This document shows positions 43,083 through 45,760 of a DNA stretch of 64,000 nucleotides, in pieces. Below the pieces are notes generated by a model, which saw only the letters and a list, made by a program, of their open reading frames with translations, was not told the DNA's origin and did not search any database. This DNA is from Methanoculleus chikugoensis (GTDB lineage Archaea > Halobacteriota > Methanomicrobia > Methanomicrobiales > Methanoculleaceae): contig NZ_AP019781.1 in assembly GCF_019669965.1 (NCBI RefSeq), positions 806,001 to 870,000 of the forward strand, given 5' to 3'. Positions within the stretch are counted from its first letter, which is position 1; each line of letters begins with the position of its first letter. A program made the translations under genes and the position numbers.

Positions 43083-43679
43083 TCATCCGTCGCTCTGCTT
43101 TGCCGGACAGTAGGGGCAGAGGGCGTTTGGGACGTCGTCGGCCTTCTCCCTGACCGGGCAGAGGTACTCCCCGTTCCTGACTTCGACCTCGAACCCGCCG
43201 GGAAACGGCGTTCCCACGGGGTGGGCGGGGCGGTCGAGGACGAAGATGTTGAAGGCGGCGAGGAGGAAGTAGAGGAGTTCGAGGTGCCGCTCCTCCTCGC
43301 CTCCGGCAAGGCACGTCTTCTCGACCATGTCGCAGAAGTCCCGGTATTCCCCCGGGAGCGGCCTCTCCCCGTCTTCCAGATCTCCCCGGCGGGCGGCGGA
43401 GATGAGGGTATGGTGCGTCTCGAAGATCTGCTCCATCACGCTCGGGTAGAGCCGGCGCCGGTATCCGGCGGGGACGGACCGGAGGTCGCGCTCCACCCGC
43501 GCCCGCATCTCCTGGAGGTCGAAGAGCGAGTAGCCGGACACCTCCCGGTAGAGGATCGTCGTGAGTTCTCTCCTGGTCCCTGCCGACCGCAGGCGGGCGC
43601 AGACCCGGCGGACATCTCCCCTTGTGCTCATCGCATCTCGGAGATATGATTGTGCCTGCAGATGCATCAGTCCTTTCAT
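43083..43679 (-). CDS. DUF2115 (UPF0305) protein
   Basis: The 198-residue protein resembles the methanogen DUF2115 family, with MEQIFETHHTLI in the middle, FNIFVLDRPAHPVGTPFPGG, and a C-terminal CPVREK...CPYCPAKQ set of cysteines that may bind metal. Its function is unknown. It is divergent from amtB and its promoter must lie in the shared 97-base gap with the NrpR-type site. Confidence 0.72.
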   Translation of the reverse strand: MKGLMHLQAQSYLRDAMSTRGDVRRVCARLRSAGTRRELTTILYREVSGYSLFDLQEMRARVERDLRSVPAGYRRRLYPSVMEQIFETHHTLISAARRGDLEDGERPLPGEYRDFCDMVEKTCLAGGEEERHLELLYFLLAAFNIFVLDRPAHPVGTPFPGGFEVEVRNGEYLCPVREKADDVPNALCPYCPAKQSDG

Positions 43680-43699
43680 GCCGTACGCAGGCTGTGGAA

Positions 43700-43732
43700 A
43701 AAATTATATGCATTGGAAGGAATCTTCCTTCC
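43700..43732 (+). promoter_or_regulatory. amtB promoter with double NrpR-type operator
   Basis: A TATA-like AAATTATATG lies at 43701-43710. It is followed at once by the palindrome GGAAGGAATCTTCCTTCC (43715-43732). This reads as two overlapping GGAA-N6-TTCC sites, the operator recognised by the nitrogen repressor NrpR in Methanococcus maripaludis. The placement on the expected transcription start suits repression when nitrogen is plentiful. Confidence 0.65.
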
Positions 43733-43776
43733 GATGAATGACGAGAACAGTTTGTGGGTGAGCCGGGGGCCGGGGC

Positions 43777-44970
43777 ATGATTGACTCCGGCGCTACGGCG
43801 TTTATCCTGGTCTGTACGGCACTGGTCATGCTGATGACCCCGGGAGTGGGGCTCTTCTACGGCGGGCTGGTGCGCCGGAAGAACTTCATCTCGATGATCG
43901 CGCTCTCGTTCATCGCGTTCGCCCTCGTCAGCATCCAGTGGGTCGTCTGCGGCTACAGCCTCTCCTTCGGCGCCGACATCAACGGGCTGATCGGGAGCCT
44001 GGAGTACGCCCTCCTGCAGGGCGTCGGAATGGAAGGTTACGGCATCCCCGATCTACTCTTTGCGGCCTTCCAGATGGTCTTTGCGGGACTCACGCTTGCA
44101 ATCGTGACGTCTGGAGTTGCGGAACGGATAAAGATCAGTTCTTTCGTCGTCTTCGGTCTGCTCTGGACGACGCTGGTCTACGACCCGCTTGCCCACTGGG
44201 CATGGGGCGGCGGATGGGCGGCCCAGTTCGGTGCGCTCGACTTCGCCGGCGGCACGGTCGTTCACATCAGTTCCGGCTTCTCGGCGCTGGCGCTCGCGCT
44301 CGTCATCGGGAAGCGTCTCGGGTTCGGCGGCCACGGCATGGAGCCGAACAACATCCCGATGGTCCTCCTCGGCGGGGCGCTTCTCTGGTTCGGGTGGTTC
44401 GGGTTCAACGCCGGGAGCGCTCTCGCCGCGGACGGCCTTGCAGCGAACGCGTTCATCGCGACGAACATCGCCGCCGCTGCCGGGGCACTCGCCTGGCTCT
44501 GTGCCGCCTGGGTTCGCGGCAGGCCCGGATCGGTCGGGATCATCAGCGGAGCGATTGCCGGGCTCGTCGCCATCACTCCGGCGGCCGGATTCGTCACACC
44601 CATAGCCGCGATTCCCATCGGGGCCGCTGCCGGTCTCGTCTGCTACGGCGCGCTGCTCTTCCGGGTTCGGGAGGGGCTCGACGAGAGCCTCGACGCCTGG
44701 GCGATCCACGGCATGGGCGGCATCTTCGGCGCCCTCGCAACTGGAGTTTTTGCGGTCGCGGCTATCGGCGGCGTGGACGGTCTGCTTTACGGGAACCCGA
44801 CCCAGTTCCTCATCCAGGTTGTGGATGTGGCCATCGTCGTGGCCTACTCGTTCGGCGTGACCTACGTCATCGCAAAGGTCGTCGATACGGTGATGGGCCT
44901 GCGGGTCACCGAGGAAGAGGAGTATGTCGGACTGGACATCGCCCAGCACGGTGAGTCCGTGCGGGTGTGA
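43777..44970 (+). CDS. amtB: Ammonium transporter
   Basis: The 397-residue Amt protein has about eleven hydrophobic helices and the family motifs [49 protein letters not shown] and [19 protein letters not shown], including the pore histidines. It conducts ammonium inward. It is followed after ten bases by glnK, whose T-loop blocks the channel. Confidence 0.95.
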
Positions 44971-44980
44971 GGTGGTGCGG

Positions 44981-45328
44981 ATGAAGATGGTTACCGCAGT
45001 CATACGGCCCGAGATGTTCGATGCCGTGAGGACGGCACTCGAGGCAGGCGGCATCTATGGGATGACCGTGAGCGAAGTGATAGGGCGGGGGGCGCAGAAG
45101 GGTATTGCCCTCAAGTTCAGGGGAAAGACGGTGCCGGTCGAACTCATCCCGAAGGTGAAGATCGAGATGGTCGTCAGGGATGCCGATGTCGACAGGGTCA
45201 TCGGTATCTGCCGGGCGAACGGCCGTACCGGCAAGCCCGGCGACGGCAGGATCTTCGTCCTGCCGGTGGAGAGCATCTGTCGGGTGCGGACGGATCTGGA
45301 GGAGCTGGAGGATCCGGAGGAAGCGTAA
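44981..45328 (+). CDS. glnK: PII nitrogen-regulatory protein GlnK
   Basis: The 115-residue PII protein has MKMVTAVIRPEMFDAVRTAL, the T-loop GRGAQKGIALKFRG and the C-terminal GRTGKPGDGRIFVLPVE. The bacterial uridylylation Tyr51 is not present, as in many archaea, so control is by ATP/ADP and 2-oxoglutarate binding. ATG 44981 is chosen for the canonical first strand; an upstream frame start at 44924 overlaps amtB. Confidence 0.94.
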   Translation: MKMVTAVIRPEMFDAVRTALEAGGIYGMTVSEVIGRGAQKGIALKFRGKTVPVELIPKVKIEMVVRDADVDRVIGICRANGRTGKPGDGRIFVLPVESICRVRTDLEELEDPEEA

Positions 45329-45429: not shown

Positions 45430-45760
45430 TTATACTGTCGGTGCTTGAACTCCTTTCCTGGAGGAACGTCATCTTCCGCATGGGTTCGTGTCCTCCGGTC
45501 AATCACAACTCATGCACGGCTTTCCATGGGGTATCGCCACGCACTGCCCCCGCCCCTTGGGGCGGGGAACGACTGCTGGAACAGCAGGAGTTTAAGCACC
45601 GCAGGTGCGAATGAGGAGGCCGGAGGCCGGGCGGGGTGGGGGTTGACGGGGGATGCTAACACGGTGAGTTTGAGCATCAATGGTATGAGTTGGAGACAGG
45701 GGGGGGGGGCACGCCCCCCCCGTCAGCCCCTCCCCCATGGCGATACTCCCACGGTCCACT
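45430..45760 (+). repeat. Dispersed intergenic element, copy B
   Basis: Reverse-complement partner of the element at 23228-23510; 45532-45644 is almost identical to it. Copy B has about 40 additional bases (near 45645-45690) before the G-run hairpin. It holds a two-hairpin unit on each strand: 45438-45470 (plus) and 45573-45608 (minus). Confidence 0.85.
45573..45608 (-). repeat. Two-hairpin unit, 45.6-kb copy
   Basis: Read on the minus strand: hairpin GCACCTGCGGTGC, linker TTAAACTCC, hairpin TGCTGTTCCAGCA, then GTCG. Confidence 0.65.

Follow-up and report, generated by a model that had tools for sequence, protein, structure and literature searches.

The repressor NrpR binds the dyad GGAAN6TTCC, and the glnK-amtB operon of Methanococcus maripaludis carries this sequence (PMC2723118). 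In Methanosarcina mazei NrpRI binds the DNA and NrpRII contacts the general transcription factors (PMC3960522), and the dyad has also been noted in one Methanobacterium genome (PMC4335013). The published operator work that we found concerns Methanococcales, Methanosarcina and this one Methanobacterium genome; no paper on an NrpR operator in Methanomicrobiales or Methanoculleus was found by title or abstract, in a coverage outside which most subscription papers lie. Here we describe a putative NrpR operator upstream of the ammonium transporter gene amtB and the adjoining P-II gene glnK in Methanoculleus chikugoensis (Methanomicrobiales), within a stretch of 64,000 nucleotides (contig NZ_AP019781.1, positions 806,001 to 870,000) that we call the window and to which all positions refer unless a contig coordinate (C1) or a locus is given. 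GGAAN6TTCC as an NrpR site is already published, and the conserved extra half-sites described below would be a modest new variation on it.

The initial annotation had placed two copies of GGAA-N6-TTCC, offset by four bases, directly after the TATA element of amtB, and the sequence agrees: a pattern scan of the window gave matches starting at 43715 and 43719. Together they make up the 18-mer GGAAGGAATCTTCCTTCC (43715-43732), which can be parsed as GGAAGGAA-TC-TTCCTTCC and is separated from the TATA-like element by the four bases 43711-43714. The pattern TATA-N-RGAA-N6-TTCC matches at this promoter, and relatives have an AT-rich box in a similar position. The elements of the promoter are the following.

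43705..43710, + strand: TATA-like element TATATG of the amtB promoter, within the A/T-rich stretch 43698-43709, read from the sequence and presumed to bind the TATA-binding protein (TBP).
43715..43728, + strand: dyad 1, GGAA-GGAATC-TTCC, the primary putative NrpR dyad, kept in the genus and in amtB promoters of other families.
43719..43732, + strand: dyad 2, overlapping, GGAA-TCTTCC-TTCC, a pattern match kept in relaxed form in 14 of 25 promoters of the genus.
43729..43732, + strand: third half-site TTCC, flush with dyad 1, conserved in amtB promoters.

Since the left half of dyad 2 (43719-43722) completes a perfect 18-bp palindrome, GGAAGGAA-N2-TTCCTTCC, with a 2-bp centre, two overlapping sites are just one way of parsing the 18-mer, and it is comparative data that decide. 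In what follows the four half-sites are numbered from the left, so that dyad 1 comprises half-sites 1 and 3 and dyad 2 comprises 2 and 4; half-site 4 is the third half-site of the list above.

GGAA-N6-TTCC occurs six times in the window against 1.25 expected, a count reached by none of 100 shuffles, and a search allowing up to three mismatches returned a single window match, the exact one, where shuffles give 0.32 matches. Among 150 genomes sampled from the order, the exact 18-mer was present in 18 and the reversed pattern in none. The 19 exact sites in the order fall at glnA (13), amtB (3) and nifH (3), as assigned by us from the site sequences together with the glnA, amtB and nifH hits. The initial annotation had pointed to glnA and nif genes as places where further copies might stand, and a second exact 18-mer of the M. 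chikugoensis genome indeed lies at glnA (C1:2479281), beside divergent glutamate-synthase genes, with nifH copies found in relatives. Two of the 35 genomes of the genus (G108 and G068) have nifH matches clearly above the rest (462 and 455 bits versus at most 397), and in each of them the 18-mer stands about 60 nt upstream of nifH; the M. chikugoensis genome itself has as its best nifH-family match one of 394.5 bits, a score level with the cut-off and much lower than these two. A chance origin of the 18-mer was rejected on the strength of its recurrence in 18 of 150 genomes against none for the reversed pattern, and of its co-occurrence with NrpR.

The initial annotation's reading of the site called for an NrpR gene in the genome, and a profile search found two proteins of the NrpR family PF01995, at 276 and 225 bits. 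One (L017) has an HTH_12 helix-turn-helix (HTH) domain followed by a single NRD domain and the other (L016) an NRD domain only; two repressor proteins, one with and one without an HTH, recall the NrpRI/NrpRII pair described for M. mazei (PMC3960522). Across the order, NrpR was found in 100 of 120 genomes, and the 20 in which it was not found include all 16 of one genus (g20, family f6) and G023. We read a glnA or amtB promoter in 112 genomes, among which the 17 without NrpR are the 16 of g20 and G023; the promoters of three further genomes without NrpR (G050, G099 and G110, 62-86% complete) were unread and stand outside the 17. The operator was present at glnA or amtB in 84 of 95 genomes with NrpR versus 0 of 17 without. 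By gene, genomes with NrpR had operator-positive promoters at glnA in 65 of 87 cases and at amtB in 64 of 84; the corresponding counts for genomes without NrpR were 0 of 17 and 0 of 10, and the reversed-pattern control matched in 4 of 198 promoters. Operator presence thus tracks NrpR across the genomes of the order. Although NrpR was not found in g20, glnA and amtB are retained in each of its 16 genomes. In G023 the glnA site is broken where it is intact in the genus mates G035 and G073, and the amtB search of order genomes found no amtB in G023. Separately, the NrpR genes adjoin glnA in some members of family f2, G001 and G043 among them.

These results make it very probable that the 18-mer at 43715-43732 is the NrpR repressor operator of amtB-glnK, on the basis of sequence comparison. 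The part of the initial annotation that named it an NrpR operator therefore stands, with NrpR genes present and the 18-mer recurring at glnA, amtB and nifH; what has to be refined is the equality of the two copies, as the comparisons below indicate. The locus resembles the nif, glnA and glnK-amtB operators of M. maripaludis (PMC2723118), with the same dyad behind a TATA element at the same kinds of gene in a genome that encodes NrpR. In cells well supplied with fixed nitrogen, NrpRI, the repressor with the HTH, would sit on dyad 1, past the TATA element and ahead of the probable transcript start, and together with the HTH-less NrpRII would block the transcription machinery; nitrogen shortage would release the repressor, presumably through 2-oxoglutarate sensing as in Methanococcus. 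The flush third half-site at 43729-43732 would strengthen binding or offer an overlapping alternative register. Often in this genus it would have been completed to the second full dyad, 43719-43732. The extra half-sites might raise affinity through two registers or provide seating for two dimers. We place the amtB transcript start just past the operator because, in the genus, glnA starts 2 nt past its own operator where one is present, and because 24 of 25 loci of the genus have, 0-3 nt past the amtB operator, an ATG that opens a reading frame stopping at the amtB start.

Several observations weigh against this assignment. The chief weakness is that eleven of the 95 genomes with NrpR lack the operator in the glnA and amtB promoters read; in several of these amtB lies directly behind glnA. 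The co-loss of operator and NrpR amounts to about two independent events (g20 and G023), so that a formal Fisher value overstates the association. A single copy of GGAA-N6-TTCC is weak evidence because the genome as a whole holds 63 copies against 38 of the reversed pattern. Finally, the locus differs from the Methanosarcina side, for which the order of Candidatus Methanoperedens was taken as the nearest sample: glutamine synthetase promoters there had the exact operator behind an AT box at 0 of 30 loci and seven of the eight core bases at 4 of 30, in a sample in which four of the 30 loci are short, some are perhaps paralogues and NrpR was not searched for.

Comparison with relatives shows that the two dyads are unequal. 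All 25 amtB promoters compared within the genus have dyad 1 in the relaxed form RGAA-N6-TTCY, and 14 of them have dyad 2 in that form. The exact half-sites 1, 2, 3 and 4 occur in 14, 14, 22 and 23 of these promoters, and 11 hold only dyad 1 in exact form, 10 only dyad 2, three both and one neither. Outside the family the comparison took in 68 promoters of amtB and 51 of glnA, almost always a single promoter of each gene from a genome and, for amtB, including six from genomes without NrpR; a site was scored where at least 7 of the 8 core bases stood behind an AT box, rows without a site were dropped from the half-site counts, and because the sets contain related sequences counts are given per genus as well. 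A dyad behind the AT-rich box was found in 45 of the 68 amtB promoters, with TTCY flush behind it at 33 of the 45 sites (14 of 20 genera). Positions 1-4 and 8-17 carry information in these promoters and half-site 2 (positions 5-7) is little conserved. At amtB, then, the upstream dyad appears to be the conserved operator and the downstream dyad the completed form of a more widely conserved third half-site.

The glnA promoters outside the family have a dyad in 30 of 51 cases, and here a flush 4-mer lies on the opposite side from that at amtB: [ACG][AG][AG]T, mostly GGGT, stands directly ahead of the dyad at 29 of 30 sites (8 of 8 genera), and TTCY behind it at 0 of 30. This 4-mer need not be a half-site and could instead be an element of the promoter; GGT ahead of the dyad also occurs at 13 of the 45 amtB sites outside the family. 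That the glnA operator is simply the amtB operator reversed was considered and rejected: with an amtB-derived matrix 24 of the 30 glnA sites score better reversed, and by the inner six bases 16 of 30 do, with 0 of 12 in genus g8. As a control we used the Methanocaldococcus order (that of the named record behind L268, here Methanococcales), which we take to include M. maripaludis; glnA was found in 32 of its 36 genomes, 30 loci were read, and glnA alone was compared. In contrast to the sites described here, these are plain dyads, with the exact N6 dyad at 30 of 30 loci and a flush extension at 0 of 30 on either side. In two of the 30 (L281 and L283) a second, non-overlapping dyad stands 22 bp downstream of the first; the nif promoter of M. 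maripaludis is itself said, in the title of a cited work, to have two operators. In this order, accordingly, the unit would consist of a single dyad with a third element set flush against it, the 18-mer of the genus being a form in which that element became a full second dyad.

How the extra half-sites are used is less clear than that the site is an operator, and the tight or graded repression that the initial annotation expected of a double overlapping site is a conjecture. NrpRI dimers might occupy half-sites 1+3 and 2+4, the second on a rotated face of the helix, as an interleaved two-dimer operator giving cooperative, switch-like repression. This would extend the assignment above and does not exclude it, and is a possibility that we take seriously without expecting it to hold. 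It rests on an analogy with IdeR, for which PMC8464063 describes four repeats in a 19-bp palindrome with dimers on repeats 1+3 and 2+4 on opposite faces, as well as a single-dimer site; four half-sites arranged as two interleaved dyads are common to both, but the repressor families differ (NrpR is the candidate here) and the repeat unit is 4 bp here versus 5 bp in the IdeR/DtxR operator. The recurrence of the full 18-mer at glnA, amtB and nifH fits such an arrangement, as does the survival of at least one exact dyad in 24 of 25 amtB promoters of the genus, although the latter is partly automatic because any single substitution leaves one dyad exact. The unequal conservation of the relaxed dyads (25 versus 14 of 25) speaks against it, and by the geometry of the helix a 4-bp offset turns the second dyad by about 137 degrees and not 180, so that the dimers may clash. 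It is tempting to speculate, more tentatively still, that NrpR acts here as a higher-order assembly, in which a third half-site, joined often in this genus by a fourth, interleaves two NrpRI dimers or an NrpRI/NrpRII complex on the 18-bp operator; an IdeR-like architecture would then have arisen separately in an archaeal nitrogen repressor, and extra half-sites on opposite sides at amtB and glnA would set different sensitivities.

A rather unlikely alternative is that the operator is an ordinary N6 dyad and that the half-sites added to it represent neutral drift or, in the case of glnA, a promoter element. Half-site 2, which is exact in 14 of the 25 amtB promoters of the genus and little conserved outside the family, would suit this, as would the Methanococcales glnA promoters with their single dyad; drift would hardly keep a flush third half-site at 33 of 45 amtB sites in 14 of 20 genera, or a flush 4-mer on the other side of 29 of 30 glnA sites in 8 of 8, where each Methanococcales count is 0 of 30. 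We consider it very improbable that the repressor reads a single 18-bp palindrome centred on the N2. Its symmetry is perfect here, at glnA and in the 18 of 150 genomes, but in promoters outside the family positions 5-7, the left inner half, add little information, all 30 glnA operators of the Methanococcales are plain N6 dyads, and in L066, L068 and L072 positions 1 and 14 have jointly become A and T, a change symmetric about dyad 1 and not about the centre of the 18-mer. The palindrome as basic unit is thus weakened by both the half-site conservation outside the family and the Methanococcales control. An RNA hairpin was set aside as well, because transcription in either direction probably starts downstream of the site.

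The genes around the site are as follows.

43777..44970, + strand: amtB, ammonium transporter, 397 aa (PF00909, 427 bits; TIGR00836, 440 bits, cut-off 343).
44981..45328, + strand: glnK, P-II nitrogen sensor (PF00543, 94 bits, cut-off 25).
43083..43679, - strand: divergent DUF2115 gene (PF09888, 164 bits; start codon uncertain).
43734..43784, + strand: predicted 16-codon open reading frame (ORF), 1 nt past the operator and ending across the amtB start codon.

The initial annotation had also suggested that the operator could silence the divergent DUF2115 gene. Such control, by way of a TATA element common to both genes, we judge unlikely. Among 29 DUF2115 loci of the genus, 22 have a divergent amtB and seven do not. 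The operator is present in all 22 of the former, where the match to the 18-mer reaches 14 of 16 or better in 21 and L060 has dyad 1 alone, and in none of the seven latter, which score 9 to 12 of 16; two of these seven genomes (G108 and G068) have amtB elsewhere, with the operator there. In G063, the closest relative by DUF2115 (94%) and GlnA (97%), the site has decayed to 12 of 16, and the amtB search of order genomes found no amtB. The operator therefore tracks amtB and not DUF2115, which is kept at all seven loci that lack it. On the other side, the distance from the operator to the aligned N-terminus of DUF2115, corrected for the residue at which each alignment match begins, is nearly constant: 33-41 nt for 20 of these 22 loci, with 49 and 82 nt for the remaining two. 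There may accordingly be a shared two-way promoter. The A/T box sits between operator and DUF2115 with a TATA readable both ways, and a repressor blocking TBP or polymerase there could act in both directions. The spacing has to be read with the start codon of DUF2115 uncertain in most relatives, which lack a start codon at the position of 43679. Within 43628-43679, the start codons near 43679 differ between 25 of 29 aligned relatives and the window, and a GGAAGGACTGAT-like block is common. A further exact GGAA-N6-TTCC lies inside the DUF2115 gene at 43201-43214, 514 bp from the promoter copy.

All 63 dyads of the genome were scanned for an AT-rich box upstream and an ORF of at least 100 codons downstream. 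Those that passed lie at amtB (both dyads), glnA (both), a glutamate-synthase-domain gene, the molybdate transporter gene MOT1 and one unclear place (C1:2494245); the remaining dyads were without an AT-rich box or ORF by the thresholds used. The two glnA paralogues (C1:434817 and C1:2477953), 87% alike, carry GGATAGAAGTTGACTTCC and the full 18-mer, respectively. The dyad behind a TATA element at the glutamate-synthase-domain gene (C1:2372560, PF01645) precedes a gene other than the divergent glutamate-synthase genes beside glnA. MOT1 (C1:2216893, PF16983) is a weaker candidate, with GGAA-N6-TTCC at the ORF start (L253, 1494-1507); NrpR sites at molybdate transporters are reported for M. maripaludis too (PMC2723118). 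The predicted nitrogen regulon would comprise amtB-glnK, two glnA genes, glutamate synthase and perhaps the molybdate transporter. These comparisons follow the NrpR operator into a further order, in which natural losses of NrpR serve as controls and an extra element is conserved. The extra half-sites lend themselves to a clear experiment on the way in which an archaeal repressor determines how sharp a response is.

The gene glnK begins 10 nt past the amtB stop and is probably co-transcribed with amtB in one operon. The small ORF between operator and amtB has counterparts of 14-19 codons in the genus (52 in one genome); it is perhaps leaderless and translationally coupled to amtB, and the ATG just past the operator may mark the transcript start. 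It is suggestive only, because any out-of-frame ORF will run into a stop in ATGATTGA, the usual amtB start. Downstream of glnK, at 45699-45721, a G run and then a C run could form a GC hairpin.
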